DNA from: a virus
Reading direction: 5' to 3' (one strand)
DNA: 22,631 nucleotides
Virus record (IMG/VR): IMGVR_UViG_3300019742_000014
Span: 1-22,631 of that record
Every line of letters begins with the position of its first letter. Positions within the stretch are counted from its first letter, which is position 1. Both the position numbers and the translations under genes were made by a program. The notes beneath the pieces were generated by a model. That model worked only from the letters and a program-made list of their open reading frames with translations. It searched no databases and had not been told where the DNA came from. This document shows positions 6,027 to 22,631 of the stretch, in pieces.

Positions 6027-6297
6027 CTTGTTTGCTCTCCTCGTATATATCTTGTGTTTGTTCCCAGTAATTCTGAAAACTTATTACTTTATTCTCTTCT
6101 TGTAGAGCTTTTATCTCTACAGTTAGATTGTTTTTTACTAGCTCTAGCTCTATAAGAGAAGTAGTACACTTACTTACTTCTGTCTGAAGTATGTTTTTTG
6201 GATGAACACAAGCCAACCAAAGCACAAAGATACTAATAATAAACAGAGCTACTAATCTAAACATCTTATTATCAAACAAGCCAATTAACTTAAACAT
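5974..6297 (-). CDS. inner-membrane spanin (Rz-like)
   Basis: A 107-residue protein with one N-terminal membrane segment (about residues 13-30, FRLVALFIISIFVLWLAC) followed by a helical, charged periplasmic domain, the topology of an Rz-type inner spanin. It overlaps the putative outer spanin gene at its 3' end and the holin-like gene by 8 nt at its 5' end. An AGGA ribosome binding site sits before the start at 6297. An alternative ATG at codon 12 would remove the short pre-membrane segment. Spanins have little conserved sequence, so topology and overlap carry the call. Confidence 0.7.
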   Translation of the reverse strand: MFKLIGLFDNKMFRLVALFIISIFVLWLACVHPKNILQTEVSKCTTSLIELELVKNNLTVEIKALQEENKVISFQNYWEQTQDIYEESKQDEKNYDSNDTYFELDIF

Positions 6298-6610
6298 CTT
6301 TAATCCTTTTTAAACAATTTTTTAACTCTACCGTGAGAGATGATACTTCTTTTAGAGATACTCTCCAATCGTTATTTAATCCCTCAAGCTTTTTTAGACA
6401 ATCTTCTTTTTCAGTCTGCTCAATTATCCTTGACTCTTCTATCTTTCTGACTCTCTCTTCTAAATTCTTTTGAGAGTTTTTACTGGCTCTATAAAGCAAA
6501 TATCCCAAAATCAAAACCATAACAATCAAAATAAATCTATTGAAATTTTCAGGCGATAGTCCTAGAATATAGTTACCTGCCTTTATCCCCAAATCAACTT
6601 TTTCATCCAT
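6290..6610 (-). CDS. small single-span membrane protein, holin-like
   Basis: The frame extends further upstream, but the start at 6610 is chosen because its ATG overlaps the stop of the preceding gene as TAATG, and this gives a compact 106-residue protein. Residues about 25-41 (ILIVMVLILGYLLYRA region) are a clear membrane span, followed by a charged helical domain (EERVRKIEESRIIEQTEKED) likely to be a coiled coil. The gene sits directly before two spanin genes, so a holin or antiholin is the natural guess. A second inner-spanin-like or tail-associated membrane protein is also possible, since most holins have a shorter soluble part. Confidence 0.5.
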   Translation of the reverse strand: MDEKVDLGIKAGNYILGLSPENFNRFILIVMVLILGYLLYRASKNSQKNLEERVRKIEESRIIEQTEKEDCLKKLEGLNNDWRVSLKEVSSLTVELKNCLKRIKDV

Positions 6611-6918
6611 TAGCTCAAATCCTCCAATTCTATTTCTAACACGAATAAATCTAATGTTCGTGTATCTCTTAAATCTACCTGAGAGTATAAAGTTTTGATA
6701 CAAGAAGTATCTGTAGAGTCTTGTAACTTTTCAAAATCTCTAAACATACTTGTATTTTTTATATCGTCGGGTGTAACTGTCAATCCTACTTGTATAGCAT
6801 AAAATAAGCCCCGTGGCTCTCTTCTAGCTACAAATATTTTATAATCTGTAGGATGATATATCTCTGCTATCTCTCTTATCTTTGCTATAGCTTCTGCATA
6901 AGTTAAACAACAAGACAT
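6610..6918 (-). CDS. phage head-tail completion protein, unassigned (102 aa)
   Basis: A 102-residue soluble protein starting MSCCLTYAEAIAKIREIAEIY. It is coupled on both sides by TAATG stop/start overlaps to the connector gene upstream and the holin-like gene downstream. It lies where head-closure or tail-terminator proteins are normally encoded, after the capsid and adaptor and before the tail tube. The N-terminal helix followed by alternating beta-prone segments (KIFVARREPRGLFYAIQVGL; LDLFVLEIEL) would fit a tail terminator fold, but I see no diagnostic motif and this is inference from position. Confidence 0.5.
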   Translation of the reverse strand: MSCCLTYAEAIAKIREIAEIYHPTDYKIFVARREPRGLFYAIQVGLTVTPDDIKNTSMFRDFEKLQDSTDTSCIKTLYSQVDLRDTRTLDLFVLEIELEDLS

Positions 6919-9140: not shown

Positions 9141-9396
9141 ATTTTTTTCCTTTCAGTTCGTTTGGTTCATTTGCGTATTTTAATACAGTTTAAAAGATAA
9201 TAATATATAGATACCTCTTATGTTTTTATAGTTATCTCTTCATATTATCAATCGTGTTACTCATCTATATATTTTCTTGTATTTCCTATATTTTGATATT
9301 CTTATAGCAAAACTTGTTTCACTCCAAAGTGCCTATTTTAGGGCTTTATAGCATAGTGAAACGCTGAAACAAGTGAAACAAAAAAAAGAGGATTAT
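9141..9396. promoter_or_regulatory. divergent late-gene intergenic region
   Basis: 256 bp separating two divergent operons: protease-capsid-tail to the left and portal-terminase to the right. It must hold promoters for both. I see AT-rich candidates only (a TAAAAT-type -10 on the minus strand near 9180; a TTATAG/TATA stretch on the plus strand near 9300), none convincing. Its right half holds the first copy of the GTTTCAC/GTGAAAC element, whose last repeat unit ends 17 nt before the portal ATG. Confidence 0.55.
9316..9379 (+). repeat. dispersed GTTTCAC-33-(NTGAAAC)x3 element, copy A
   Basis: GTTTCAC at 9316-9322, then 33 nt, then GTGAAAC at 9356, CTGAAAC at 9364 and GTGAAAC at 9373 (steps 8 and 9). 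The spacer contains an AAAG...CTTT pairing and shares GG-CTTT-T-G positions with copies B and C. The last unit lies just before the portal ribosome binding site, so a bound protein would be placed to control portal-terminase transcription, or, if transcribed, the region could fold. Confidence 0.85.
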
Positions 9397-10458
9397 ATGA
9401 CAAAAGGCAAACAAAGTAGATATATAGTAAGTAAATCAGATAGCTCTATGCAACTACGCACAGAAGAGGATTATCTAGCAGAGGGTTTAGATGGAATAGT
9501 AGAGCCTTATATTAGCTTCTCGACTCTTAGAGCATTGTATCCTGCAAATGTGTATCATACTAGAGCTTTGAAGCTCAAAGCAGGGATACTTAGTCAAATA
9601 GATACAACTACACTAGATAAATATATGCCTAAAGGTATCACAGCTAAATCATTTTTATACAAATTCATCTTAAACCTAGAGGTCTATGGAACTGCATTTA
9701 TAGAGAGAGCTGGACTAACAAATGACTTCTCTATATATAATCTAAATAGTTACTATGCTAGAGTAGATATAGAAAACAATATACACCAACAAGTCAATTT
9801 AGAAACCCAAAAGCTAGAGGGCTATCACTTAAAATATGACTCTATTCTAAGCGACTATTACGGAGAGCCTGACTATATAGCTATCCTTAGAACCATTAGT
9901 ACACTATACAAAGCAGATGTATATAATGATAAGTTCTTTGAAAATGGTGGTAAACCATCTTTGGTGATAATTTTTGAGGATAGTGACCCAACAGATGACC
10001 AAGTAAAGGCTATAGAGGATTATTTAAAAACAAATACAGGAGGATATGAGAATGCTCATAAAAATCTGATTTTGACTACTGGAGAGGGGAACGGTGAGAC
10101 GAAACCTAAAATTAGGATAGAGAAAGTAGGAGATATAGAAGATTTGAGCTTTGAGAAATTAAAAACAATGGGGCGTGATGAAATAGCAGTAGCCCACGGA
10201 GTACCTCCTAGAATGTTGGGAATAGTACAGAGTGGTGGACTCGGTGGAAGTGGAGAGCTATTGGCTCAAATGGAGATGTTTTTAGAAGTTATCATTAATC
10301 CAAAAATAGACCTCATAGAAAGTTTTTTTAAAAATATTGGTATAGAGTTAAAAATCAAAAGATTTGATTTGAGCAGTATGAGTAATGATGAAATAGGAGA
10401 TGCACTAGTAAAGAGTGGAGTAATTACGAAGAGTGAGAAAAAAGCACTGTTAGGGTAA
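9397..10458 (+). CDS. portal protein
   Basis: The start chosen is ATG 9397 (353 aa), with AGAGGA a few bases upstream; a GTG eight codons earlier lies inside the repeat element and is less likely. The protein matches P2 gpQ/PBSX-type portals: an N-terminal region with PYISFSTLRALYPANVYHTRALKLKAG, a central wing with GTAFIERAG and a Tyr-rich part, and the C-terminal stem/crown signature RDEIAVAHGVPPRMLGI followed by a Gly-rich GGLGGSGEL segment, strongly typical of this family. Portals form the dodecameric ring at one capsid vertex through which DNA is packed and ejected. It is followed 3 nt later by the terminase gene, forming a two-gene operon. Confidence 0.92.
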   Translation: MTKGKQSRYIVSKSDSSMQLRTEEDYLAEGLDGIVEPYISFSTLRALYPANVYHTRALKLKAGILSQIDTTTLDKYMPKGITAKSFLYKFILNLEVYGTAFIERAGLTNDFSIYNLNSYYARVDIENNIHQQVNLETQKLEGYHLKYDSILSDYYGEPDYIAILRTISTLYKADVYNDKFFENGGKPSLVIIFEDSDPTDDQVKAIEDYLKTNTGGYENAHKNLILTTGEGNGETKPKIRIEKVGDIEDLSFEKLKTMGRDEIAVAHGVPPRMLGIVQSGGLGGSGELLAQMEMFLEVIINPKIDLIESFFKNIGIELKIKRFDLSSMSNDEIGDALVKSGVITKSEKKALLG

Positions 10459-10461
10459 GAA

Positions 10462-12054
10462 ATGGCAATTAAAAAAGAAAAGAAAAATCAAATACTCATA
10501 CAAGTAGATGCAGGGATACCTGTACAAGAGTTAGCCGATGAGTACAAGATAAGTAAAGGCACTATTTGGGCTTGGTTGCGTAAGAGAAAAAAAGAGGGTA
10601 TTAATCCGAACGAGACTATTGATAATATCAAGAAGCAAATTGCCACACTAGCAAAACGCAAAGCTACAGAAGCCGTAAGTAGAAAGATAGCTATGCTCAC
10701 TTCAGCTCTTGCGAAACTAGAGAGAAGAGAAGATAGAAAAGAGGTGGTGGCTTCAAAGGTCAAACCTATGCCTACAGTAGTCTCTACAGAAGAGGCAGAG
10801 GAACTCAAAAAAAGAGCATTAGATGGAGAGTTTGGAGAGCTATTTGAGTATCAAAAAGAGTTTATGCAATCTACAGAGATATTCCGATTAGTCATCAAGT
10901 CTCGTCAAATTGGGTTCTCATACATAGGAGCATTGGACGCACTCATAGGAGCAGTAGCAGGTAGAAATCAACTCTTCTTATCTGCTTCAGAAGAACAGGC
11001 TCTTATTCTTATGCGTTATGTTGAGCATTGGGCTGAGAAGATGAGTATCGTTTTTACTGTAAATAAAGATAATGAGAAGAGACTAAGTAACGGTGCTATC
11101 ATTAAGGCTATGGCAAACAACTTTAGAACTGTACAAGGGTTCACCGGCGATATATGGATGGATGAGTTCGCATGGTATCAAAATCCTCAAAAGATTTGGA
11201 GAGCGTTTGTGCCATCGATAGGTGCTATTGGAGGTAGGCTTACGATTATGAGTACACCTTTTGAAGAGCCTAGCTTATTTCATCAGTTGGTCACAGATGA
11301 GCTTAAATACTATATGTTTAAAAGATTTAGGATTGATATATATAGGGCGATGAAAGATGGTCTAAAATTTGATTTAGAAACTATGAGAGCATTGTTTGAC
11401 GCAGAGAGTTGGGCGAGTGGGTATGAGTGTCAATTTGTTGATGATGAGTCAGCACTATTCCCTATAGCTCTTATTAAAAGCTGTGTAAATAATAAGCTTT
11501 TCTATCGCACTCCCAATCCAAACAAAGTTCAGTTTGCAGGTTTTGATATTGGTAGGACTACACACAAATCGGCACTTGCTGGGTTAGAACTTATAGAAAA
11601 TAAATACTCCTTGATTACTTTAGATTTATTGCATAAAGCTACATTTGAAGAACAGGAGACACATATATTTAACTACTTAGATGTTAATAGATTAGCACAA
11701 ATGAACATTGATAAAAGTGGTATAGGGATGGATTTAGCAGAGAGAACAAAGAAAAAATATAAGCAAAGAGTAAAAGGCACATATTTTACTCCAAGCTCCA
11801 AAGAGGCTATAGCACTCAATCTTAAAAAGATGTTTGAGGATAAGATAATAGAGATACCCAACGACTCTGTACTCATCGCAGATATTCACTCTATCAAGAG
11901 AAGAGCATCAGGGAAACGCTTCTTATATGACTCAAAGGCGAATGAACACGGTCACGCAGATAGATTTTGGGGTTTGGCTTTGGGAGGTAGTTTTATAAAT
12001 GCAATAGAGAGAAAAAAGGGTGGTAAAGGGAGGGGAATTGTATTAGGAGGGTAA
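10462..12054 (+). CDS. terminase large subunit with N-terminal HTH domain
   Basis: A 530-residue packaging motor. Residues about 18-42 form a helix-turn-helix (VQELADEYKISKGTIWAWLR) like that of small terminase subunits, followed by a helical linker (50-95). The ATPase has a divergent Walker A (KSRQIGFS, K146-S153), Walker B ending WMDE (D234, E235) and a coupling motif IMSTP (262-266). The C-terminal RNase H-like nuclease shows FDIG (D362), NIDKSGIGMD (D417/D424) and HGHADRFWG (D500). Single-polypeptide HTH-terminases are known in P2 (gpP) and Mu-like phages. No separate small subunit is seen, so the N-terminal domain may supply DNA recognition. The gene starts 3 nt after the portal stop. 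Confidence 0.93.
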   Translation: MAIKKEKKNQILIQVDAGIPVQELADEYKISKGTIWAWLRKRKKEGINPNETIDNIKKQIATLAKRKATEAVSRKIAMLTSALAKLERREDRKEVVASKVKPMPTVVSTEEAEELKKRALDGEFGELFEYQKEFMQSTEIFRLVIKSRQIGFSYIGALDALIGAVAGRNQLFLSASEEQALILMRYVEHWAEKMSIVFTVNKDNEKRLSNGAIIKAMANNFRTVQGFTGDIWMDEFAWYQNPQKIWRAFVPSIGAIGGRLTIMSTPFEEPSLFHQLVTDELKYYMFKRFRIDIYRAMKDGLKFDLETMRALFDAESWASGYECQFVDDESALFPIALIKSCVNNKLFYRTPNPNKVQFAGFDIGRTTHKSALAGLELIENKYSLITLDLLHKATFEEQETHIFNYLDVNRLAQMNIDKSGIGMDLAERTKKKYKQRVKGTYFTPSSKEAIALNLKKMFEDKIIEIPNDSVLIADIHSIKRRASGKRFLYDSKANEHGHADRFWGLALGGSFINAIERKKGGKGRGIVLGG

Positions 12055-12059
12055 ATATT

Positions 12060-12123
12060 GTTTCACCTAAAGCCTCGTATTTGTGGGCTTTATGGAGTGG
12101 TGAAACGGTGAAACGCGTGAAAC
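12060..12123 (+). repeat. dispersed GTTTCAC-33-(GTGAAAC)x3 element, copy B
   Basis: GTTTCAC at 12060, then GTGAAAC at 12100, 12108 and 12117 (steps 8 and 9, identical to copy A). The 33-nt spacer holds AAAGCC...GGCTTT, a perfect 6-bp inverted repeat. It fills nearly the whole 74-bp gap between the convergent terminase (plus) and gp10-like (minus) genes. No promoter is needed here, so the element may act in termination, silencing or DNA organisation rather than initiation. Confidence 0.87.
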
Positions 12124-12128
12124 AAGAA

Positions 12129-12551
12129 TTAACGAATATTCCTCAATCCTTGGGATAAATTATTAAATATCTCTTCACTCATATCACCTGCGAATGTGTC
12201 CAACAATGTAGCTAATCGTCCAGAACCTGCCAAATTTCGTAATGCTCTATCTAAATAGGGATTAGCACTTATCCCGGGATGATTAACCTTTTTAAATATA
12301 CCATAAGGCGTTCTCAAAGCCTTTTTTCTTTTCGGACGGATAACATAAGGTCGTGTGCCATTGTGAACATATCTAGCATAATCTATCAGAGCCGTATTAC
12401 CCACGGTTCTCTGTCCGATTTGAGCAGGGAATATCGTAATATCCCCTGCTAATCTCTGTGTCACTCTAGGAGCTTCTCGTACTGCTTCGGCTTGGAGCAT
12501 AGCAGAGGCGATGTCTAAAAAGCGTTCTATTGGGATTTGATAGTTATCCAT
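12129..12551 (-). CDS. HK97 gp10-like neck/tail completion protein
   Basis: The start at 12551 (MDNYQIPIERFLDIASAM, 140 aa) overlaps the preceding stop by 8 nt; an ATG three codons earlier is possible. The central motif YARYVHNGTRPYVIRPKRKKAL followed by HPGISANPYLDRAL (given in pieces) is typical of HK97 gp10-type and gpS/virion morphogenesis proteins that join tail to head. It is the last gene of the long leftward operon and converges on terminase. Confidence 0.75.
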   Translation of the reverse strand: MDNYQIPIERFLDIASAMLQAEAVREAPRVTQRLAGDITIFPAQIGQRTVGNTALIDYARYVHNGTRPYVIRPKRKKALRTPYGIFKKVNHPGISANPYLDRALRNLAGSGRLATLLDTFAGDMSEEIFNNLSQGLRNIR

Positions 12552-12792
12552 CCAACACATCCATTAGACCAGTAACTATTCTATCAAGACTTACTCCACT
12601 CCTCTTTGAGTGCTGTTCAAGTTTTCTTATTATTTTTTGCTGTGTACTCACGCTCATAAAAATACCATAGTTCTCTAAGTTGTATCCAAAATCTTCAAAT
12701 ATATCATCCGTTGGAACATCTATAGCTTTGCTGTGTTTTGTTAGCTCTTTTTTGTTTCTGTAATCTCGTTTGGGTTGCCATTCTTTCAACAT
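12544..12792 (-). CDS. small protein with ribbon-helix-helix-like C-terminus
   Basis: 82 residues, coupled upstream by a TAATG overlap and downstream by an 8-nt overlap. The C-terminal half reads as strand-helix-helix: GIFMSVS, then TQQKIIRKLEQHSKRSG, then SLDRIVTGLMDVL, similar to RHH DNA-binding proteins. The N-terminal half is charged and unassigned. Its place between two head genes would make it an unusual site for a regulator; a small structural protein is an alternative. Function unknown. Confidence 0.5.
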   Translation of the reverse strand: MLKEWQPKRDYRNKKELTKHSKAIDVPTDDIFEDFGYNLENYGIFMSVSTQQKIIRKLEQHSKRSGVSLDRIVTGLMDVLDG

Positions 12793-13994
12793 TATTTTTC
12801 CTTAGTAAGACTATCAAAAGCCTTTTTATCAGCATCTTTTACAGATACTATTATATTATCTTCTAGCGTATATAGTTTCTTTGTCTTAGTGCTATACGCT
12901 ACATTCTGCACAGGGTTCAAGATACTAAGCTCTATCCTATCAACCTCCTTTAGACCTTTAATTATATCTGCATCAGATACACCATTTTTAGCCGTCTTTT
13001 TTGTTATTATAGCCTCCTTATCGTATTTGGGTATCCTAAGTGAATACTCTACCTTTTGTTGATTGTGTGTATCACCAGAGACTAGAGAGCCATCTACACT
13101 CTCACCGTCTATCGTCTCGTTCTCAGGGAAGTGTGCGACCATTATGGTACGACACCCAAAGTGATACGGACTCATTCCAACATTTGCAGGAAGTTTACCC
13201 CAAAGAGGTGTACTTTGCCATTGAGATGCCTTTTTCTTTGCCTCTATGTCTGTTGCACTTGTTACAGCATTCGCTTGGGTCGTGAGGTGCTTAATAGGTA
13301 TTATTCTACCATTCATACTTAGACAAATCTTTGAGGTTTTCTTATCTATCTTAGCTACTGCTTTGACATACTCAATCCCTGCCTTTTCGTATTGATAGAC
13401 ACGATTAAGAGATTGGCTTTGGCGTATGATATGGTCACTCACATTTGTAAAGTACCTACTAGACTCATCTACTATACCACTTAGCTCTTTTCTAAGTGTA
13501 GCTCCTATTTCAGATGTGGGTATATCTCCACTCATAGCAGAGGTTATTACTTTCTTCACTTTGTCTTGTGTATTCTTTGTGCCATCATCTTTCATCCACA
13601 AGAGCGAACGATTGACGCTCTCTATCACCTGTGCATCTTTTTTATCAAACTCAAACGAGGCTTTGATACCTGTAGCTACAGTTATCGCAGATTTATTGTA
13701 TATCTCTTCTAGTGTAGTAGAATCCACGCTATATGATAGATGTGTGAGCTTTGTATCTACAAGAGCTATCAGTTGCTTTTTGTCTATCTCCTTTACTCTT
13801 TGCATCACATAGATATATATATCATCTACGAATGCTTCGGTCTCTTTTTTGTTGATTTTAGCAACATCAGAGAGATACTTATCTATCAACTCTTCTATAT
13901 CAAGAGCTTTTTTTGCTTTATAGATAACATAGCTCTTTAATATTCTAAGCTTTGTCACCTGCTCTTTAGTTACTGTCTTGTTCAATATAGGCAT
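12792..13994 (-). CDS. minor head protein, Mu gpF/SPP1 gp7-like (MuF family)
   Basis: A 400-residue protein starting at 13994 (AAGGA ribosome binding site) and overlapping the zinc-ribbon gene by 29 nt. Residues about 190-290 carry the MuF pattern: RQSQSLNRVYQYEKAGIEYV, then KIDKKTSKICLSMNGRIIPI, then SPYHFGCRTIMVAHFP with the Cys pair (C224, C281) typical of the family. MuF proteins are minor capsid proteins packed in the head and may be ejected with DNA. Beyond the core, residues about 313-400 form a separate Lys-rich alpha/beta segment, discussed as a finding. It lies apart from the portal gene, which it usually follows. Confidence 0.82.
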   Translation of the reverse strand: MPILNKTVTKEQVTKLRILKSYVIYKAKKALDIEELIDKYLSDVAKINKKETEAFVDDIYIYVMQRVKEIDKKQLIALVDTKLTHLSYSVDSTTLEEIYNKSAITVATGIKASFEFDKKDAQVIESVNRSLLWMKDDGTKNTQDKVKKVITSAMSGDIPTSEIGATLRKELSGIVDESSRYFTNVSDHIIRQSQSLNRVYQYEKAGIEYVKAVAKIDKKTSKICLSMNGRIIPIKHLTTQANAVTSATDIEAKKKASQWQSTPLWGKLPANVGMSPYHFGCRTIMVAHFPENETIDGESVDGSLVSGDTHNQQKVEYSLRIPKYDKEAIITKKTAKNGVSDADIIKGLKEVDRIELSILNPVQNVAYSTKTKKLYTLEDNIIVSVKDADKKAFDSLTKEK

Positions 13995-14163
13995 TATATT
14001 CCTTTATCTCATCATCACTCATAAAATTTATCAAAATCGGACGCTCCTCACTATGAAAGATGAAGTCGCATTTATGACACTGCTTTACTCTCTTTGTAGT
14101 AGCAACTAGAGATTTTGTAGAGATTGTCCTTATCTTAGGCTCTGCACATTTTGGACATACCAT
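13966..14163 (-). CDS. zinc-ribbon protein, Ogr/NrdR/Com-like
   Basis: The start at 14163 is chosen because it overlaps the GemA stop as TAATG, giving 65 residues: MVCPKCAEPKIRTIS..., with Cys pairs CPKC and CHKC separated by 22 residues (C3, C6, C29, C32), then FIFHSEERPI. The spacing and the basic segment between pairs resemble P2 Ogr/Delta late activators and the NrdR zinc ribbon; Mu Com is another small zinc-finger protein. It lies between the last middle gene (GemA) and the first late gene (MuF), the right place for a late-gene activator, but that role is inferred. Confidence 0.7.
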   Translation of the reverse strand: MVCPKCAEPKIRTISTKSLVATTKRVKQCHKCDFIFHSEERPILINFMSDDEIKEYNAYIEQDSN

Positions 14164-14582
14164 TATTTTTCCTTTAAAGTTTTTTTGAGTGCCAATATGC
14201 ACTTAGTAGCATCTGCTTTAGAGATACTCTTTAAGTTTAAATATCTATTTTTAGTTATACGATAGATAAAGTTCCTAGTAGCCTCTTCACTCTTATCTGT
14301 AGCATAGACTTGCCCCAACTCACGGATAACTGTTAGCTGACGCTCTGTTGCATCTTTGCTTCTATCTTTGATAGTTGCTAGTTCTGGTGTCTTATAGTTT
14401 AAATAATCTACAAGAGCTATCAACTGCTCTATGTTCAAATCCTTTGAGCTTCTAACTCCGAAATGAGCAAAGAGCTTGTCTTGATACTCCTCTTTGTTAT
14501 CTCTAAAAAATGATTGATATTTTTTAGAGATATGCACTTGTTTTATCAAATCTGCTTTGAATTTAATTTGGCTTTTTGTCAT
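14163..14582 (-). CDS. gemA: GemA (Mu gp16-like) regulatory protein
   Basis: The start at 14582 gives 139 aa and overlaps the preceding stop as TAATG, with GGAGGAAAG just upstream. The sequence KADLIKQVHISKKY..., followed by YQDKLFAHFGVRSSKDL and LNIEQLIALVDYL and then ATERQLTVIRELGQVY, fits the GemA/gp16 (DUF1018) family. In Mu GemA/Mor modulates host gene expression and DNA supercoiling; the biochemical role is poorly defined. It sits next to the likely late activator, as gemA sits next to mor in Mu. Confidence 0.75.
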   Translation of the reverse strand: MTKSQIKFKADLIKQVHISKKYQSFFRDNKEEYQDKLFAHFGVRSSKDLNIEQLIALVDYLNYKTPELATIKDRSKDATERQLTVIRELGQVYATDKSEEATRNFIYRITKNRYLNLKSISKADATKCILALKKTLKEK

Positions 14583-15499
14583 TAACTTTCCTCCATAATA
14601 TAATATTTTGTAAGCTTTGGATTGATTTGTTCCAATCTCCAATAATAGCCTACCATCTCATCAGCCAACGCTTTGCCTCGTCTGTCTGTACGAGACAAAC
14701 CCATTGCTTCGACTAGTTTGGACTTGCTTAGTCCATCCTCCTCTTTTCTAAGAGCTTTTAATGCCTTTTCTACAAGCTCTCTATCGACATCATTTAAACC
14801 ACTTTTAATCGGATTATATGCAGACAGGTTATAATTTCTAGTATCAACAGAAAACTGACAATGTTTTACAAGTGTACCTCTACCATGCGTAAGGTTTAAA
14901 TCCAAATTGGTAATATGCTCAACTTCACCTATCTTTTTCAAATCATAGATATTGTCAAAAGAGCTAACATAAAGCTGACTACCTCCTATAAGTTTCCCTG
15001 TTGAATTTGAATGATGAAGTATGATAACTGTACCACCTGCATCACGCATTGCTTTTACACAATCTACAAACTCACGCTGTTGGTTCTCATTCTTCAAATC
15101 AATAAAATCTTTAATCGTATCAAGCACGAAAGTACAACCGATATACGCATTTTTTTTGGCTTCTTTGCGTATCTCACGCAACTTTTCCATCGGTGTACTA
15201 TCTAGCTTAGTATTCATAAATAATTTGATTTTTGGTTGTCTATCTATAAGTTTATTAAGCTCTCTCTCTTTTGCATCTTCCAAAGAGTTATCCATATCAA
15301 GATAAAAGACATTATTAACACTTTTAAGCTCACACAGAAAGTTACAAACGCTCAATATCAATAAGCTCTTGCCTTGCTTGGGCTTTGCGTGTATCATAGT
15401 AACAGAACCCGAATAGATAAAATTATCAATATAAGGTTCTCTATCTTCAATCTCAAAATCCTCCTGTGTAACTATTCCTGTTTGTTCAAAATTAAACAT
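14582..15499 (-). CDS. RecA-fold ATPase, RepA/DnaB-like (AAA_25 type)
   Basis: The start at 15499 (MFNFEQTGIVTQEDF, 305 aa) overlaps the preceding stop by 8 nt. Walker A AKPKQGKS (residues 38-45), an acidic FYLDMDN strand (about 65-71), Walker B TFVLDTIKD (D127) and IILHHSN (His162/163) make a RecA-like hexameric ATPase of the RepA/AAA_25 type. The C-terminal part (about 235-295, LVEKALKALRKEEDG then LSKSKLVEAMGLSRTDRRGK) looks like a winged helix. Such proteins act as replicative helicases or recombination mediators. Directly downstream of a DciA-like gene, a helicase role in phage replication is attractive but not shown. Confidence 0.8.
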   Translation of the reverse strand: MFNFEQTGIVTQEDFEIEDREPYIDNFIYSGSVTMIHAKPKQGKSLLILSVCNFLCELKSVNNVFYLDMDNSLEDAKERELNKLIDRQPKIKLFMNTKLDSTPMEKLREIRKEAKKNAYIGCTFVLDTIKDFIDLKNENQQREFVDCVKAMRDAGGTVIILHHSNSTGKLIGGSQLYVSSFDNIYDLKKIGEVEHITNLDLNLTHGRGTLVKHCQFSVDTRNYNLSAYNPIKSGLNDVDRELVEKALKALRKEEDGLSKSKLVEAMGLSRTDRRGKALADEMVGYYWRLEQINPKLTKYYIMEES

Positions 15500-15941
15500 G
15501 AGAATCCCTCGCCATTTGTCTAATATTCTCAAACTTCTTTACAAGCTCCTTATCATCACCATCAAAAATATCAAAAGTTCCCAATGCTCTATCAGGTCGC
15601 TTTGGCTCTTCTCTTTTATGCTCTATAGGCTTGTGTTTGGTCTTAGCTACAACATCAGTAAAATATAATATATCTCTCATATTATTATCTCTATATATAT
15701 CACGCATCTTATCTTTAATATCTTTTTTATCTCGATTAAACTCCATCAAGATAGCTGTATGTTTAAAATATATAACTAGAGTTTTACCCTCTACAAACGC
15801 ATAATCAAAGAACTTTTGCAACTTATCACTTAGAGCATTTTTAAGCTTCAAGATGGCTTCTGCTTGTTTTAGCTTGGGACTATCTAGTGCAGTTTTCGGA
15901 TTTGCTTTGTCTAATTCTTTTTGTTTGGCTCTTGGTATCAT
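15492..15941 (-). CDS. DciA/DUF721-like protein (putative helicase loader)
   Basis: 149 residues. Residues about 28-95 follow the DciA/DUF721 pattern as found in Campylobacterota: a helix LKNALSDKLQKFFDYAFV, then GKTLVIYFKHTAILMEFNRD, then KKDIKDKMRDIY and a last strand ILYFTDVV. In the family this KH-like fold binds DNA and loads the replicative helicase DnaB. The C-terminal third is a charged, likely disordered tail. It overlaps the RecA-fold ATPase gene by 8 nt, hinting at a loader-ATPase partnership. The ribosome binding site is a full AAAGGAGG. Family call by eye, medium certainty. Confidence 0.6.
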   Translation of the reverse strand: MIPRAKQKELDKANPKTALDSPKLKQAEAILKLKNALSDKLQKFFDYAFVEGKTLVIYFKHTAILMEFNRDKKDIKDKMRDIYRDNNMRDILYFTDVVAKTKHKPIEHKREEPKRPDRALGTFDIFDGDDKELVKKFENIRQMARDSHV

Positions 15942-15967
15942 TAATCCTCCTTTTTTTATAGACTCAT

Positions 15968-15993
15968 TAGAGCCACTTGGGTAAGTGGCTCTA
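15968..15993 (-). other. intergenic hairpin after the endolysin gene
   Basis: An 11-bp perfect stem (AAGTGGCTCTA with its complement) around a 4-nt loop. On the minus strand it follows the endolysin stop (16005) by 11 nt and precedes the next ribosome binding site by about 15 nt. No T-run follows directly, only an A-rich leader, so it is not a standard intrinsic terminator; an attenuator, processing site or 3'-end stabiliser is possible. Confidence 0.75.
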
Positions 15994-16004
15994 TGAATTT
16001 ACTG

Positions 16005-16547
16005 TTATATCAATACTCTATTTAGAAACCATCCAAAAGTAAATCTTTTATTTTTTTGGTACTTTTCTGTAATCTCTATGTATCTAGCTCCTTGCAATGC
16101 GTTCAACATTCTCAAAATCACTTTTTCTCCATTAGCTCCTCTATGTTTTAATACATTTTTTAAAGCTAATATAGTTTTAGAACCTATATATCCATCTACC
16201 TTTAACTCCAATGTTCCTTTGTGTCCCAAGGCATTCAAGCTTCTTTGTAGAAATTTACATGGTATAGAAGTTCCCATGTTTACACCTGTGTCAAATAGCT
16301 CAAATGCTATCTTTTCACTGATAGGCTCAATTTTATCAAGTGTCAATCTATCCCAATATCTTCTCTTATATATCTCATACGCTACAACTTTCGGCATATC
16401 TTTCATCTTTCCATCGTAGCCATTTTCACGAGCTACAGCTACAGTTATTCCAAAGTTGGTTTCACCACCAGAGTCCAATGGGTCATTTACATATCCACCC
16501 TCTATTTTTATGACCTCTGATATTAGTTTATCTTTTATGCTAGACAT
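16005..16547 (-). CDS. endolysin, GH108 N-acetylmuramidase with peptidoglycan-binding domain
   Basis: 180 residues. The N-terminal GH108 motif is clear: VIKIEGGYVNDPLDSGGETN with the catalytic Glu in EGGY (E16) and NFGIT. The middle (YEIYKRRYWDRLTLDKI, FELFDTGVNMG) matches the same family, and the C-terminal third (LKVDGYIGSKTILALKNV) is the PG_binding_3 domain. There is no signal peptide, so release would need the holin. The start follows GGAGG, which lies inside the end of the preceding gene. Unusually for a lysis gene it is in the early/middle operon, about 10 kb from the holin-like and spanin genes. Confidence 0.92.
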   Translation of the reverse strand: MSSIKDKLISEVIKIEGGYVNDPLDSGGETNFGITVAVARENGYDGKMKDMPKVVAYEIYKRRYWDRLTLDKIEPISEKIAFELFDTGVNMGTSIPCKFLQRSLNALGHKGTLELKVDGYIGSKTILALKNVLKHRGANGEKVILRMLNALQGARYIEITEKYQKNKRFTFGWFLNRVLI

Positions 16548-16548
16548 A

Positions 16549-17151
16549 TCAACCTCCTATCTTAGCAGGGTCTAACGCTATAATGACCCACGGTTCACCG
16601 ATTTCTCTCTTTGTATAAAATCTAATGTAACTCTTAGATTTTGCAACTTGGATGGACTCATTTATAATATCCATAGCTTCAAGCCAAAGAGGATGGTCAA
16701 TCTCGTAACTTCTAAGCTCTAGTATGCTCTTGACATTTATAGAGCCTTTTTTATCAACATCAAACGCTTTCATCATCAGAGTTTTGATGTTTGCCGATGA
16801 GTCTTTTGTCTCTTCTTTAAAGAATAAATCTAGCTTCTCTTTTGCAAAAGTTAGCTTCTCATCAAACTCAACGGTATCCGAAATTTGGATAGAAACTTTT
16901 TGAAGACCATCAAATGTCTCTAGGTTCATATTTCCTTTTTTGGTGGATACATCTAGTTTATACTCTTGCCTCATCAATGCTATATAGCTATCTACTTTCT
17001 CAGTAGCTTTCTCTTTAAAGAGTTTCATTCTCTTTTGCTCTTCAATAGCGTCAGAGATTATCTCTCTAACCATCTCATCCTTGATTTTGTCAGATGCTTT
17101 GACATTATCAGGGTGAACTTCATCACCCTGTTTATTTATCCATTTACTCAT
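16549..17151 (-). CDS. DUF3164 family protein of Mu-like phages
   Basis: The start at 17151 (MSKWINKQGDEVHPDNVKAS, 200 aa) is an ATG with GGAG 7 nt upstream; the codon before it is GTG. The pattern matches DUF3164: a helical N-terminus (VREIISDAIEEQKRMKLFKEK), KGNMNLETFDGLQKV, FDEKLTFAKEKLDLFF, DKKGSINVKSILELR and a C-terminal WVIIALDPAK. This family is common between the MuB and endolysin genes of transposable phages, near host-nuclease-inhibitor genes. Its biochemical function is not known. Overlaps the preceding gene by 8 nt. Confidence 0.8.
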   Translation of the reverse strand: MSKWINKQGDEVHPDNVKASDKIKDEMVREIISDAIEEQKRMKLFKEKATEKVDSYIALMRQEYKLDVSTKKGNMNLETFDGLQKVSIQISDTVEFDEKLTFAKEKLDLFFKEETKDSSANIKTLMMKAFDVDKKGSINVKSILELRSYEIDHPLWLEAMDIINESIQVAKSKSYIRFYTKREIGEPWVIIALDPAKIGG

Positions 17152-17320
17152 CACCTATCTCCTTATCATCTATCTCTATATAGACAAATCCTAAATCATC
17201 ATCTTCTACGACTTCGATTATTCTGGTCTTATCTGTATCTATAAAACCTACACTCACCTTTGCATCAGCAGGGTACTTACTTAATGCTTCTCTCAACTCT
17301 CCGATTGTTCTTATACTCAT
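17144..17320 (-). CDS. small conserved-type phage protein (58 aa)
   Basis: The start at 17320 (MSIRTIGELREALSKYPADA) is chosen for its AAGG ribosome binding site; a longer frame upstream would run into the repeated hairpin element. The TIGELREALSKYPADAKVSV pattern, followed by an acidic beta-rich end (VVEDDDLGFVYIEIDD), is seen in many small phage and bacterial proteins of unknown function. It is preceded by the second copy of the hairpin leader. Confidence 0.6.
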   Translation of the reverse strand: MSIRTIGELREALSKYPADAKVSVGFIDTDKTRIIEVVEDDDLGFVYIEIDDKEIGDE

Positions 17321-17338
17321 AATATAACCTTTTTTCTT

Positions 17339-17387
17339 TTTTTTGTAAGTGCGTAAACACTCCACAAAACCCCTCATGAGGGGCTTT
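17339..17387 (-). repeat. hairpin leader repeat, copy 1
   Basis: The block TTTTTTGTAAGTG, one variable base, GTAAACACTCCA (plus strand) is shared with copy 2 at 17915-17963, and is followed by a 10-bp stem at 17366-17387 (CCCCTC/GAGGGG core). On the transcribed minus strand the order is stop codon, hairpin, TGGAGTGTTTAC block, A-rich stretch, ribosome binding site, gene start at 17320. The two stems differ in sequence but keep the same length and the same single G-U pair position. Confidence 0.82.
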
Positions 17388-17399
17388 AAGAATGTTTGA

Positions 17400-17900
17400 T
17401 TATTGGAATAAGTTTATATTTTTTGGAATATAAACTGTAGAGTGTAGCTTTGCTATATCTTTATCTATCTGTTTATTTAAAGCTTTTAGATAGTTTCTTA
17501 AACTATCTAAATTGCCTATTTTGCTTTCATATTTTTCAAAAGTATTAAATGGAATATTTATAATTACTTTATCTACATTATATCTAATATCGAAATAGCC
17601 ACTAAGTCCGTCTTCTAAAATATCCAAATTAAAATTTATACCAATATTTTGAAGAGTATCAATAAAATACTCGATACTATCAAGAGCGTTTTGAAACTCT
17701 TTAATCTTGTTTTTTGTATCTATTAAAGATACAGTTGTATTTTCACCTAAAGATATGTTAAAACTTTTTCTATTCATTTTACTAAACTTCAAAATCATAT
17801 CTTCAACGCTCATAATTTCAAAATTACCACTTTTTGACATTTCTAGCTCCATATCTTTTATGATATTATCTACTTCTTTTTGTGTGTATTTCTTTTTCAT
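17400..17900 (-). CDS. hypothetical protein (166 aa)
   Basis: The start at 17900 (MKKKYTQKEVDNIIKDMELE) has AAAGG upstream and excludes the leader repeat that the longer frame would include. The protein is soluble, mixed helix and strand, Asn/Ile/Lys-rich, with FNISLGENTTVSLIDTK and DGLSGYFDIRYNVDKVIINI regions. I do not recognise a family. It is flanked by hairpin leader copies 1 and 2, so its expression may be controlled together with the 58-aa gene downstream. Confidence 0.65.
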   Translation of the reverse strand: MKKKYTQKEVDNIIKDMELEMSKSGNFEIMSVEDMILKFSKMNRKSFNISLGENTTVSLIDTKNKIKEFQNALDSIEYFIDTLQNIGINFNLDILEDGLSGYFDIRYNVDKVIINIPFNTFEKYESKIGNLDSLRNYLKALNKQIDKDIAKLHSTVYIPKNINLFQ

Positions 17901-17914
17901 CGTGTAGCCTTTTA

Positions 17915-17963
17915 TTTTTTGTAAGTGAGTAAACACTCCATAGAACCTCTCTGGAGAGGCTCT
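17915..17963 (-). repeat. hairpin leader repeat, copy 2
   Basis: Second copy of the block described at 17339-17387: 25 of 26 bases identical in the flank (17915-17940), then a 10-bp stem at 17942-17963 (CCTCTC/GAGAGG core). It begins within the stop codon of the 25-aa membrane peptide and ends 15 nt before the 17900 start. Confidence 0.82.
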
Positions 17964-18039
17964 AGCAGTCTTTTATTCTACGCTCTAACCATATCCATGC
18001 TATTAGCCAATAAATGCCGTATCCTATTAGCCAACTCAT
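17962..18039 (-). CDS. 25-aa membrane peptide
   Basis: ATG at 18039 preceded by GGGGGATAAG, a strong ribosome binding site; the peptide is MSWLIGYGIYWLIAWIW followed by LERRIKDC. One Trp-rich membrane span covers residues 3-17 with a positively charged C-terminus, so it should sit in the inner membrane with its C-terminus inside. It lies between the 84-aa gene and leader copy 2. A strong ribosome site and a fitting gap favour a real gene. Possible roles include superinfection exclusion or membrane modulation; none is shown. Confidence 0.6.
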   Translation of the reverse strand: MSWLIGYGIYWLIAWIWLERRIKDC

Positions 18040-18075
18040 CTTATCCCCCAAATACGCACTTTTGTATATCTATTT

Positions 18076-18092
18076 CTCTTTATTTTAAAGAG
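18076..18092 (-). other. intergenic hairpin before the 25-aa peptide gene
   Basis: A 7-bp stem CTCTTTA/TAAAGAG with a 3-nt loop, 14 nt after the stop of the 84-aa gene on the minus strand. A TCTTTTT run follows on the plus strand only. It belongs to the set of post-stop hairpins in this operon. Confidence 0.55.
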
Positions 18093-18105
18093 TCTTTTTA
18101 TATAT

Positions 18106-18360
18106 CTAAGCATAAATCAATCCTTTTTCTATACACGCCTGAATAGCGTTATATCTAGCTCTTCTCATATCCAATACTCTTTTTTTAGGTAGAGATACAC
18201 ATCTAAATTTATCTATATCGTGCTTCTCAAAAGTCTCAACAAACATTAAACATTTTAAATTGTTTGCTTTAGAAACATAAGTAGATAAACGCTCATGGCT
18301 TCCTGCTATAAGCCCCACTCTTTTACCATTTTGTATTCCTATCAATCTTATTATATTCAT
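18106..18360 (-). CDS. hypothetical protein (84 aa)
   Basis: Basic protein MNIIRLIGIQNGKRVGLIAG... overlapping the preceding winged-helix gene by 4 nt (ATGA). Beta-prone first third, then KCLMFVETFEKHDIDKFRCV and a basic helix VLDMRRARYNAIQACIEKG. No family recognised. Coupled to a DNA-binding protein gene, so an early regulatory or host-takeover role is possible only by context. Confidence 0.6.
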   Translation of the reverse strand: MNIIRLIGIQNGKRVGLIAGSHERLSTYVSKANNLKCLMFVETFEKHDIDKFRCVSLPKKRVLDMRRARYNAIQACIEKGLIYA

Positions 18361-18626
18361 ACCATACTCCTATATTTTCTCTTTTTAGTCAAAGGACACA
18401 AAGGACTCACATCTTTTACTAGACGAAACTTTTTATCAAGAAACTTTTGTGGACTAACTGTCTTTACTATGTAGCCTCCTCTTACTAGCTCTCTAAGTAT
18501 TTTAGATAATGTGTTTTGGCTTATTTCAATTATCAAGAGAATATCACCAACCCTAAAGTTTCTATTGTCTCTTATGTATGTCCAGACTCTCTGCTTACTG
18601 CTTCTTTTTATGCGATTATTCGTCAT
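18357..18626 (-). CDS. winged-helix DNA-binding protein
   Basis: The start at 18626 (MTNNRIKRSSKQRVWTYIRD, 89 aa) overlaps the ATPase gene by 11 nt. The segment RVWTYIRDNRNFRVGDILLI, then ISQNTLSKILRELVRGGYIV, forms a helix-turn-helix with a following wing (SPQKFLDKKFRLVKD). It resembles small MarR/replication-type winged-helix proteins. Located right after the transposition genes, it may regulate the middle operon. Confidence 0.65.
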   Translation of the reverse strand: MTNNRIKRSSKQRVWTYIRDNRNFRVGDILLIIEISQNTLSKILRELVRGGYIVKTVSPQKFLDKKFRLVKDVSPLCPLTKKRKYRSMV

Positions 18627-19323
18627 CTTTCTCAACCCCACTAGCCCTGAATGTCGCAAGGCTCATAGAGTCTAGTCCATTTGCTTCACAAAACTTCTCT
18701 ATTCTTAAAATGAATACTTTTATTCGTCTAAGATTTGGATATTTTTTACCAAAGAACTCTATCAAGTCAGGCTCTAGTGCTACTTCACACTGCTTGACGA
18801 ACTTTTTTATATCATCTGCTCCTATGTTGCGAAACTTCACTTTCTCAACAATACGGCTATAGAAATGAGGATGATTTTTGAGACGAGAGTTACATGACTC
18901 CATACCGACGAGTACAATCACATTGCCACTCACATCGTGTATATCTCTAAAGAACTCCAAGATGTTAAATCTATCAGCTCCTAGTAGTCCATCTATCTCA
19001 TCAATGATAATCGGTCGAGGATTTATCATCAAGCTATCTATCACTTCATTAAATAGTTCGCTTGATGTTTTAGACTTAGAGTCTATAGATAGCTCTCTAG
19101 CCAATAGCTTCAGAACGGACGATTTCGTCCAAGTTTGGTTTTGTCTAAGCACTATTGCATCAAATTCATCCTTTATCTTAGAGATAGATATTGTTTTACC
19201 TACTCCATATACACCGAAACATAAGCCCATTCGTTCAGCGTTCCCCTCTAAATCATCAACTAGGGTGGACATTAGCTCATAGAATTTGGTATAATTACTT
19301 GTTTTAACAAAAGCTTCTTGCAT
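18616..19323 (-). CDS. transposition AAA+ ATPase (MuB/TnsC-like)
   Basis: 235 residues. Walker A GVYGVGKT (37-44), Walker B PIIIDEIDG (D108/E109), sensor-1-like VLVGMES (about 137-143) and an arginine-finger-like FYSRIVEKV (about R157) identify an AAA+ ATPase of the MuB/TnsC class. The C-terminal lid (PNLRRIKVFILRIEKFCEA) fits. MuB binds DNA as ATP filaments, chooses target sites, activates the transposase and gives target immunity. It is the gene directly after the transposase, separated by a 16-bp-stem hairpin, with AGGAG before the start. No N-terminal HTH as in Mu MuB, so it is shorter (Mu MuB is about 312 aa). Confidence 0.9.
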   Translation of the reverse strand: MQEAFVKTSNYTKFYELMSTLVDDLEGNAERMGLCFGVYGVGKTISISKIKDEFDAIVLRQNQTWTKSSVLKLLARELSIDSKSKTSSELFNEVIDSLMINPRPIIIDEIDGLLGADRFNILEFFRDIHDVSGNVIVLVGMESCNSRLKNHPHFYSRIVEKVKFRNIGADDIKKFVKQCEVALEPDLIEFFGKKYPNLRRIKVFILRIEKFCEANGLDSMSLATFRASGVEKDDE

Positions 19324-19346
19324 AGAAACTCCTTTTTTATTTTATT

Positions 19347-19399
19347 AGTCTTAGTCTAGTAAGACTTATCAAGAAGAGCCTTTGCTCTTCTCAATAAGT
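19347..19399 (-). other. strong hairpin between transposase and ATPase genes
   Basis: 19364-19379 pairs with 19384-19399 around a 4-nt loop: a continuous 16-bp RNA stem on the minus strand (two G-U pairs), starting one base after the transposase stop. A second 7-bp stem (19347-19353 with 19360-19366) overlaps its last 3 bases, so the two may compete. No U-run follows. This could reduce ATPase expression relative to transposase or be an RNase III-type processing site. Confidence 0.85.
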
Positions 19400-19400
19400 G

Positions 19401-21398
19401 TTATGCTAGTTTTCTCTCCTCCCACTCCTCTTTTGCCATTTCGTATAATCTAGGCTTCTTTTGTGCTAGTTTCTGTGTACTCTCATCAAATGTATCGTGT
19501 TCAAAGTCCCACATAAATCTATCATGTAGATTGTTAAAGATTGGACGACCATTTACAAGTACCTCGGCATCATCTTTGGTCTCTTTTTTAGTGTCTATAG
19601 ACTCCTTTATCTTATTAATTACTTCATTTTGCTTCTCTATAGCTATATCTATCGTCTCATCTTGTACTATAGTCTCATTCTTAGTGTCAAGAAACTTTTC
19701 TATTCGTTCAGGTTTATTGGCTCTTATATCGTCTAGTCTTTTTTGTGCTTTTATCTGCTTTCTATCAAATTTCAAAGATGCTATATGCTCATTCCTACTT
19801 CTACCCATCTCTGCGTAGTTTTCAGCTTTGCAAACGAAGCTCATATTTAAGTCATAGACATATATCACACCTAAATCATCATCAGACAAGCACCACATCC
19901 ACTCTCCCACCATATCGTAGAAAATATCGTTAAAATATTGGATTTTATCAATGGTTATACCTTTTTTCGTTATCTTTTTTGAGATAGAAGAGCCTACAAG
20001 AATATTAAGAACATTTGGGTCGCTTATAGTGTTTCTAGGTACTCCACAAGAGTTCCATTTTTCCATCGGAGTCATATCAATAGAGCTATGCTTTCTATTT
20101 TCATAGTGTGTAGTCCACTTCTCCATTATCATCTTTAGCTCTTCTATCGAAATGGGCAACTCTATATCAATTCCTAGATTCTCTTTTTTATTTGCGAAGT
20201 TTTTAGCAAAGTCATCTCCACTCTTAAATCTATCATTCCACTTCTTTATAGACTCTTTTTTAGCAGAGAATGTTTGTCTATTTGCTAGACGCTCTCTATC
20301 TGCTGTATTGTGTCCGATAAAGCCATTGATACGCGTAAATAGGTCTCTTGTTAGTGTTCCAAAAAAACGCTCGATATGAGGCTTCAAATACCCACTAAAA
20401 GGAGGAGTGAAGTCTTGTTGTATATTCAGTCTATCACAAGTATAAGCAAAGTGTTTGGATTTATACTCTTTACCTTGGTCACACAGAACCCTTTCAGGTA
20501 TTCCAAACTTCTCAATAGCTTTTTTTAGCATTCTACCGAGAGTCACACTAGACGAACTCGGTTCTATTACCCACACTACTCTTCTACTATAGACATCAAT
20601 GGCCGCAGAGATGGCATATCGAATACCGTCACTACAAATCACATCACACGGTGTACCATCAAGCTCCCAAAGTGCGTTGGTGTGCATTATCTCACTATCA
20701 GCTCGTCCCGGTGCTGGACGATGTTTGGATACTGCACTAGAGGGGTTGTTTGCTAAAGTATAGATAAACAGATTATCAGGGTCTCGCTTCCATTTGCTTA
20801 CCATACGCACAATAGTAGCGTAAGATGGGATTTTGGTATTTTCAAAGTGCATCTGCATATATTGTTCTATATGCACAGTCTGTATATCAGGATTTTCAAG
20901 TATCAGATTTTCCATATACTTATATTGCTCATCAGTATAAGAACGATTAGACACACCTTTACCTCTACTATCAAGCAAGTATTCTAGGGGGACTAGGTCT
21001 TTTGCTCTACAATCTCTTACTATCTTATTCCACCTAAACAGATTTGTCTTATTTAGCTTCAACTTTGCATATTTTCTATCTACTCTTTTAAGGAAAGCTT
21101 TCCAACCCTCACTACTCGGACGATTGTTATAGTCTCTCACGAGTCTCTGCTTTAAGATAGCTTCTCTTTGCTTTTCATCAGATGCTAAAAGCCAAGCTTT
21201 AGATGTATCTGTCTCTTGTAGTTTTTCAACTTTAGGACTCGTCTCGATAAAGTCATACTCATCATCTATCATAGTAAAACTAAAGCTTCTATCACCGAAT
21301 ATCACACTCTTATTATTGTCAGATACAGCTTTTTTAATAGTTCGTCGTATCCATTGTTCAGACACTTCAAGCACATCAGCTATCTCTCTTATGTTCAT
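19401..21398 (-). CDS. DDE transposase (MuA/TnsB-like)
   Basis: 665 residues. N-terminal HTH (MNIREIADVLEVSEQWIRRTI, in part) like the Mu DNA-binding domain; then a helical end-binding region to about 200; the rve/RNase H core with catalytic D247 (WELDGTP), D307 (CDQGKEY) and E343 (PHIERFFGTL); a beta-barrel about 460-540 (WMWCLSDDDLGVIYVYDL); and a charged C-terminal region likely to contact the ATPase. The second Asp and the Glu are separated by 35 residues, a compact DD35E arrangement, whereas MuA has a longer insertion. It cuts and joins phage ends in replicative transposition. AGGAG precedes the start; it is the first large gene after the Ner-like regulator. Confidence 0.94.
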   Translation of the reverse strand: MNIREIADVLEVSEQWIRRTIKKAVSDNNKSVIFGDRSFSFTMIDDEYDFIETSPKVEKLQETDTSKAWLLASDEKQREAILKQRLVRDYNNRPSSEGWKAFLKRVDRKYAKLKLNKTNLFRWNKIVRDCRAKDLVPLEYLLDSRGKGVSNRSYTDEQYKYMENLILENPDIQTVHIEQYMQMHFENTKIPSYATIVRMVSKWKRDPDNLFIYTLANNPSSAVSKHRPAPGRADSEIMHTNALWELDGTPCDVICSDGIRYAISAAIDVYSRRVVWVIEPSSSSVTLGRMLKKAIEKFGIPERVLCDQGKEYKSKHFAYTCDRLNIQQDFTPPFSGYLKPHIERFFGTLTRDLFTRINGFIGHNTADRERLANRQTFSAKKESIKKWNDRFKSGDDFAKNFANKKENLGIDIELPISIEELKMIMEKWTTHYENRKHSSIDMTPMEKWNSCGVPRNTISDPNVLNILVGSSISKKITKKGITIDKIQYFNDIFYDMVGEWMWCLSDDDLGVIYVYDLNMSFVCKAENYAEMGRSRNEHIASLKFDRKQIKAQKRLDDIRANKPERIEKFLDTKNETIVQDETIDIAIEKQNEVINKIKESIDTKKETKDDAEVLVNGRPIFNNLHDRFMWDFEHDTFDESTQKLAQKKPRLYEMAKEEWEERKLA

Positions 21399-21422
21399 TA
21401 TTACTCCTTTTTGTTAGATTGT

Positions 21423-21487
21423 GTTTCACTGCAAAACTCGTGTAGTAGGACTTTGTAGGTCGGTGAAACAAGTGAAACAACTGAAAC
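21423..21487 (+). repeat. dispersed GTTTCAC-33-(NTGAAAC)x3 element, copy C
   Basis: GTTTCAC at 21423, then 33 nt, then GTGAAAC at 21463 and 21472 and CTGAAAC at 21481 (steps 9 and 9). It fills most of the 151-bp gap between the Ner-like gene and the transposase start (both minus strand), directly upstream of the transposase ribosome binding site. It could control transposase expression or be bound by the transposase itself. Confidence 0.87.
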
Positions 21488-22324: not shown

Positions 22325-22456
22325 GTGAAGCAGGTGAAACATAAAAACGCTATTTTTGTTTCAGTAAGTATAAATATAAGAAGTGTCGGTCTAATGGGAT
22401 ATAGAAGAGTTTTAAACTAATTCAAAAAAGCTAAGTGAAACATTAACTCGGTTCAC
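22325..22456. repeat. GTGAAAC-type sites at the presumed phage end
   Basis: GTGAAGC at 22325 and GTGAAAC at 22334 (9-bp step), GTTTCAG at 22358, GTGAAAC at 22435 and GGTTCAC at 22450. The same heptamer as in elements A-C but without their fixed 33-nt layout. Transposase-binding sites at Mu ends also contain GTTTCA, so this cluster may mark the transposase-binding end of the phage; the last CA could be the terminus at 22442 or 22457. Confidence 0.5.
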
Positions 22457-22517: not shown

Positions 22518-22631
22518 ATATTATTCTCTTTTTAACTAATCCCCTACATCAAGCGATGGTCCAGAGATGGTAAAACATCATACTACCAAACAACAAAGAA
22601 GAGATTTAGCCAATCGTATGAAAGATACCAA

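Follow-up and report, generated by a model that had tools for sequence, protein, structure and literature searches.

Repeat arrays at gene junctions of Mu-like phages, probable docking sites of a phage ATPase

Three noncoding repeat elements, C1 to C3, lie at gene junctions of IMG/VR record IMGVR_UViG_3300019742_000014 (22,631 nucleotides, hereafter the window), a 22.6-kb virus record that is a fragment of a Mu-like transposable phage. The layout of these elements is conserved in related phages, where an array commonly adjoins the gene of one particular ATPase, and we consider it probable that the elements are DNA docking sites, in the form of iteron arrays, of this ATPase, the putative binder encoded at 14582–15532. 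The pairing of ATPase and arrays points to an undescribed protein–DNA system; no description of the element turned up in the literature searched, which consisted of open-access papers. The elements and the proposed binder are listed here.

9316–9379, plus strand: element C1, with GTTTCAC at 9316–9322, a core dyad AAAG(TG)CC..GGGCTTT at about 9326–9347 and the array at 9356–9379.
12060–12123, plus strand: element C2, with a single unit at 12060–12066, a core AAAGCC..GGGCTTT at about 12069–12091 and the array at 12100–12123.
21423–21487, plus strand: element C3, with a single unit at 21423–21429, a core at about 21433–21454 and the array at 21463–21487.
14582–15532, minus strand: ATPase gene, proposed cognate binder, with an AAA_25 or RecA-RepA-like core (Pfam AAA_25, E=4e-10).

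Within the window, the geometry given in the initial annotation was borne out. In 3/3 copies, exactly 33 nt separate GTTTCAC from the first array heptamer, the array steps are 8/9, 8/9, and 9/9 bp, the orientation is identical, and 13 of the 33 spacer positions are invariant, GG-CTTT included. The window contains 14 copies of the heptamer GTTTCAC where 1.9 ± 1.3 would be expected, about a sevenfold excess, and none of 100 shuffles reached 14. However, the earlier statement that no heptamers lie inside genes did not hold, single ones being found at 3078 (tail gene) and 16459 (endolysin gene). A strict search for three exact 6-mers at 8- to 11-bp steps plus an inverted copy gave 16 matches in 1.0 Mb (window and relatives), of which at least one, inside a coding region of relative G006, looks spurious; Markov-1 controls totaling 3.0 Mb gave none. 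C1 separates the divergent protease and portal operons, and its array ends 18 nt from the portal ATG (9397). C2 occupies the gap between the convergent TerL gene (stop at 12054) and gp10-like gene (stop at 12129). C3 lies 25 nt upstream of the transposase start codon and ∼1.1 kb from the left phage end, from which C1 and C2, unlike C3, are far removed.

Relatives were gathered as 47 contigs by a TerL-seeded search, the window transposase having returned none when used as seed. A word-blind scan found the same architecture in these relatives with other unit words: inverted units, a dyad core AAAGYCC..GGGCTTT (of the type AAAGYCC-TATTTA-GGGCTTT between both sides), and three tandem units at 8- to 9-bp steps. 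The window’s group has the words GTTTCAC, GTTTTAC, and GTTTCGC, and a second group has GTTGTA or GTATTA; GTCGTA and GTGGTA also occur. Because one layout recurs with different words, the word appears to be a changeable protein recognition site, and because all unit copies change word together in related phages, the initial proposal that a sequence-specific protein reads each unit agrees with the observations. A search for the precise pattern built on GTTTCAC was too narrow: among the matches listed from public viral and genome collections, only unrelated tandem repeats appeared, because related phages use other words. The bridging across four helical turns that had been read from the 33-nt spacer is not general, since much of the GTTGTA group has 31 bp from single unit to array, compared with 41 bp in the window; many elements in relatives are symmetric 3+3 rather than 1+3. 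Integron attC-like and CRISPR-like readings were weighed from the layout and set aside, no supporting feature being found.

The positions recur as well. An element lies upstream of portal in G013, G014, L167, L170, and L171, between the ATPase gene and GemA in the second (GTTGTA) group, and in the early region of G005 and G006. The C2 position after TerL is conserved in the close relatives L134, L137, and L140 and similar in L136, which upholds the earlier argument that the convergent copy speaks against a simple promoter operator. This TerL/gp10 junction (window 12055–12128; same in L134–L140) is also a hotspot for accessory genes, with 0 to ∼5 kb of variable genes, and part of the L134 insert lies between two elements. 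The unit words GTGAAAC and GTTTCAC were also seen at 32930–32970 of G006, within the coding region of an S24-type repressor. Campylobacter relatives (L143–L160 and L223) have AT-rich GTTTAAA repeats and no convincing element by the strict search.

Since the portal and ATPase–GemA copies are predicted to be transcribed just ahead of a ribosome-binding site, and inverted units and core are able to form hairpins, we considered a transcribed RNA element, a 5′ leader or hairpin of the 3′ untranslated region that controls translation or termination. This is very unlikely. Folding gave a mean z of −2.9 for the sense strand versus −3.3 for antisense, with sense better in only 8 of 28, and this absence of strand bias favors a DNA site over a strand-specific RNA. 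Moreover, several genes have the element in reverse orientation, it is not obvious why an RNA would need three identical tandem complements, and no Rfam match was found in the window.

Relatives without an ATPase related to that of the window are also without elements, and in the second group the element starts a few nucleotides past the ATPase stop; an ATPase profile was therefore used to gather loci, of which it collected 53. Among 23 listed relatives in which the next gene does not overlap, 22 carry a GTTGTA triple array between −20 and +60 nt from the ATPase stop codon, compared with no control match in 353 kb of shuffled sequence. This list excludes near-duplicates; six GTTTC-clade loci, whose ATPase and GemA genes adjoin or overlap each other; L256, which has GTATTA as its word; and L252 and L293. 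A word-blind search placed 11 of 16 arrays within −20 to +120 nt of the stop. In one form of the 3+3 geometry, left units lie 0, 9, and 18 nt and right units 53, 62, and 71 nt past the stop (L251, L254, L255, and L260, within 1 nt), and strict 9-bp steps occur in many symmetric 3+3 sites. The contigs with ATPase and array include marine phages, and L253, L266, L278, and L292 have upstream genes of transposase and MuB size, as judged by size only. Two annotated phages found afterward by protein search served as a held-out test. One of them, the Helicobacter prophage BK070158, has a perfect 18/18 array where the conserved part of its ATPase gene ends, and there the array is read in frame. A second GTTGTA-type array was seen in the same prophage (L297, 470–493), inside the transposase coding region.

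Word and protein also change together. Contigs L164 and L165 share 99.96% identity across 9,014 bp and diverge exactly at GemA; past it, their ATPases are only 32% identical and the element differs too, the word going from GTTGTA to GTATTA. Judged from the alignment, the pair is a natural swap in which ATPase and array were replaced jointly. In L254, a GTCGTA element of its own is followed by one resembling that of L253, the arrangement to be expected from such a replacement. Moreover, in the family alignment, the predicted recognition helix differs with the word: TAR or close variants accompany GTTGTA; TAN accompanies GTGGTA, GTCGTA, and GTATTA; and the GTTTC clade has GKR, with GKA in the window. 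In the tree, the GTTTC and TAN clades are both well supported and nested in GTTGTA relatives, and we infer that the pairing extends to the GTTTC words of the window.

The ATPase has 316 amino acids (aa), with an AAA_25 or RecA-like fold only and no primase domain detected. An AlphaFold2 (AF2) model (predicted local distance difference test score 83) has a RecA-type core and, after it, a predicted winged helix made up of three helices and two strands (residues 248–312).

14597–14791, minus strand: predicted C-terminal winged helix of the ATPase, residues ∼248–312, with the recognition helix at 284–292.

Foldseek matched the fold to RecA, KaiC, RadA, and RSF1010 RepA (1nlf, E=3e-9). Viral matches are AAA and primase-helicase proteins, and the relatives in BK070158 and in CAM-P21, the second held-out phage, are annotated “hypothetical protein.” The binders named in the initial annotation (immunity repressor, Ner, transposase, and partition factor) are weaker candidates than this protein, whose gene carries 3′-end arrays in relatives: no ParB domain was found in 12 phage records, and G012 has no such array in its early region. 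The transposase keeps some plausibility, as GTTTCRC occurs in its end sites in the window’s group. The product of 12544–12792 (82 aa, ribbon-helix-helix-like by eye) was dropped as the family’s binder, having no homologue in the relatives, where a different protein is encoded.

A further reading takes the elements as a centromere for partition, of the P1 parS kind, or as half-sites for a host ParB; in its favor, the unit GTTTCAC is identical to the half-site of the parS consensus in common use. In P1 parS, moreover, an IHF site is flanked by BoxA clusters of one and three (PMC10999674). We regard this reading as the least probable of the explanations: ParB_N (PF02195), present in 10 of 14 control genomes, was found in none of the 12 phage records; the words of related phages (GTTTTAC, GTTTCGC, or GTTGTA) are not parS half-sites; the units are direct tandem repeats; and it is not obvious why an integrated prophage would need partition.

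If the ATPase binds the arrays, its winged helix would read one unit per protomer. The full site, in which a dyad core is flanked by three inverted units on one side and three units at 9-bp steps on the other, could accommodate a multiprotomer ring or filament nucleating at the core, and a hexamer on 3+3 units is an attractive arrangement. The ATPase would, most likely in our judgment, assemble at the arrays and remodel DNA in an origin-like manner, as in helicase loading by P4 alpha at iterons; once bound, it may additionally block transcription through the junction. In the window’s lineage, the word would have changed from GTTGTA to GTTTCA/GTGAAAC, the ATPase gene would have come to overlap GemA, and the sites may have been reduced to 1+3 at other junctions.

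Several findings weigh against docking by the ATPase. No array is present at the ATPase stop in L252 and L293, and none was seen with the weak ATPase homologues of G008 and G011. In CAM-P21, the ATPase gene is present and overlaps the next gene, with no clear array. In the window’s clade, the array is not adjacent to the ATPase, which overlaps GemA; this overlap would explain the other locations of the window’s elements, for which the link to the ATPase is drawn from phylogeny and correlation. C1 is missing from the closest relatives. Word changes number only about two or three independent events, with words tracking ATPase clades, so the correlation of word and helix is partly shared ancestry. 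An origin is not obviously needed, because transposable phages replicate by transposition. Finally, the transposase end sites of the window’s group also hold GTTTCRC, so the transposase could share the units.

The left end of the phage was recognized at ∼22551 by comparison with G005 and G006. The end at ∼22530–22551 reads ...CTTTTTAACTAATCCCCTACA and matches the G005 and G006 ends (TGTGGGGGTTCAGTTAAAAA inward), and the ∼80 bp beyond it (22552–22631) are probably host DNA. Two further unit groups lie nearby.

22325–22364, strand not assigned: left-end unit group, with GTGAAGC and GTGAAAC (9-bp step), then 17 bp and GTTTCAG.
22435–22456, strand not assigned: transposase end-site candidate, GTGAAACATTAACTCGGTTCAC, holding one unit; G006 and G005 have matching sites.

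The elements could be internal transposase sites (enhancer-like or for self-immunity), analogous to the internal activation sequence of Mu, as C3 lies upstream of the transposase gene near the left end and the end sites of the window, G006, and G005 hold GTTTC-type units, the variants of which resemble those in the internal elements. We consider this unlikely, however. The GTTGTA-group phage G012 has no such array in the early region, arrays track the ATPase gene instead, and G006 starts, at what is probably its right end, with GTTCATGTTTATAG, which lacks the GTTTCAC word; the shared bases may therefore stem from the transposase consensus.

A stronger competitor, though one we hold to be true with less than even confidence, is that the elements are dispersed operators: a phage DNA-binding protein, which might be the ATPase or some other regulator, would repress transcription or act as a roadblock to it at junctions, with an effect like that of mycobacteriophage stoperators. 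The elements are intergenic, many arrays end 10–25 nt ahead of a start codon, and C2 is located where convergent transcripts meet. Upstream of portal, the element has a conserved late-promoter-like region on one side and the ribosome-binding site on the other; this promoter region is retained where relatives lack the element. Nevertheless, each phage has only two to three copies, several ATPase-linked copies precede no start codon, and the elements do not all point the same way relative to transcription: C3, the early-region copies in G005 and G006, and the second copies in G012, G026, and L169 run in reverse. Position is most strongly constrained at the end of the ATPase gene, not at promoters. 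Origin-like docking and the operator or roadblock reading remain close, and we slightly favor docking because the most constant array position is the end of the ATPase gene.

Beyond elements and ATPase, the window holds MuB-type ATPase and GemA genes and a P2-like head module in which portal–TerL runs opposite to protease–capsid.

19401–21398: DDE transposase, by rve and Mu-transpos_C domains.
14163–14642, minus strand: GemA homologue (Pfam GemA, E=6e-11), overlapping the ATPase gene in the window.
15492–15941, minus strand: DciA-like gene (Pfam DciA, E=4.5e-4, a weak match below the cut-off).

The DciA-like gene lies directly upstream of the ATPase in the window’s group and is conserved in five phages of that group; its product is a possible helicase partner of the ATPase. 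A search for integrase or rve domains in records without a transposase match found none, these contigs being fragments. After GemA, 13966–14202 encodes a small zinc-ribbon protein reminiscent of P2 Ogr-type late activators, with no match above any curated cut-off. The portal-upstream gap (window 9141–9315) recurs in G013, G014, L160, L167, L170–L172, G020, and others. In several relatives, a conserved dyad CACTCYATATA..TRGAGTG, followed by a T-rich stretch and a TATATTAAAAT-like −10, precedes the portal gene; it is found with and without the element, is degenerate in the window, and is a candidate late-activator site. In the ATPase–GemA interval of G012 (19789–20221), G026 (6197–6648), and L169 (4975–5425), a gene for a Cys-containing protein of 97–101 aa lies between two inverted elements and resembles a small inserted cassette.

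A large and mostly unannotated ATPase family of transposable phages thereby gains a candidate DNA target, and specificity can be tested directly on a series, provided by nature, in which word and recognition helix are matched. Should the ATPase load a helicase or remodel DNA at the arrays, Mu-like phages would possess, beside transposition, a step that is origin-like or organizes the genome. If the sites are operators, their regulator would be ATP dependent, with word and protein both exchangeable, which would help in studying the joint replacement of such pairs. More speculatively, many transposable phages may carry a second DNA-remodeling system beside transposition, with a winged-helix ring ATPase and a matching 3+3 array behind its gene, the array having spread to other junctions and word and protein being replaced as a module; such a system would load a helicase or organize the genome in a mode of replication supposed to need no origin.

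Among known systems, the operator/internal activation sequence of Mu lies ∼1 kb from the left end and is bound by the transposase N terminus and the repressor. C3 is at a similar distance, but C1 and C2 are far away, and G012 has no early copy. Mycobacteriophage L5 has repeated intergenic stoperator sites of one phage protein at gene junctions (PMC9283540); these number >20, are single asymmetric 13-bp sites for a monomeric repressor, and are oriented with transcription, whereas here there are two to three multiunit arrays per phage in mixed orientation. In P1 parS, which lies just downstream of the binder gene, one heptamer box and a cluster of three flank a central spacer (PMC10999674). C1–C3 resemble it in their 1 and 3 heptamer clusters around a spacer, but many relatives are 3+3, no ParB or B boxes were found, and the units here are direct tandem repeats with changing words. 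The hexameric helicase RepA of RSF1010 has its RecA-type fold in common with the window’s ATPase, and we know of no fused winged helix of this type in it. The RSF1010 origin is recognized by RepC, not RepA (PMC4234260). ORF904 of pRN1 is an ATPase with a C-terminal winged helix and a stem-loop origin directly 3′ of its own gene, an arrangement suggested for phage BIP-1 too (PMC4234260). The site immediately downstream of the ATPase gene is as in the relatives here, although the ATPase superfamily is another one and pRN1 replicates as a plasmid. In phage P4, alpha has crr as its second site. P4 alpha is a helicase-type replication protein whose C-terminal winged helix binds short origin repeats (PMC4234260, citing Ziegelin and Lanka 1995 and Yeo et al. 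2002). It combines a primase with another helicase class, whereas here a RecA/RepA-like core with no primase detected occurs in a transposable phage, with units in symmetric 3+3 arrays around a dyad. Like P4 alpha, however, the window’s ATPase has a predicted C-terminal winged helix (AF2 model and alignment). Tandem arrays adjoin the ATPase gene in the relatives and are distant from it in the window.

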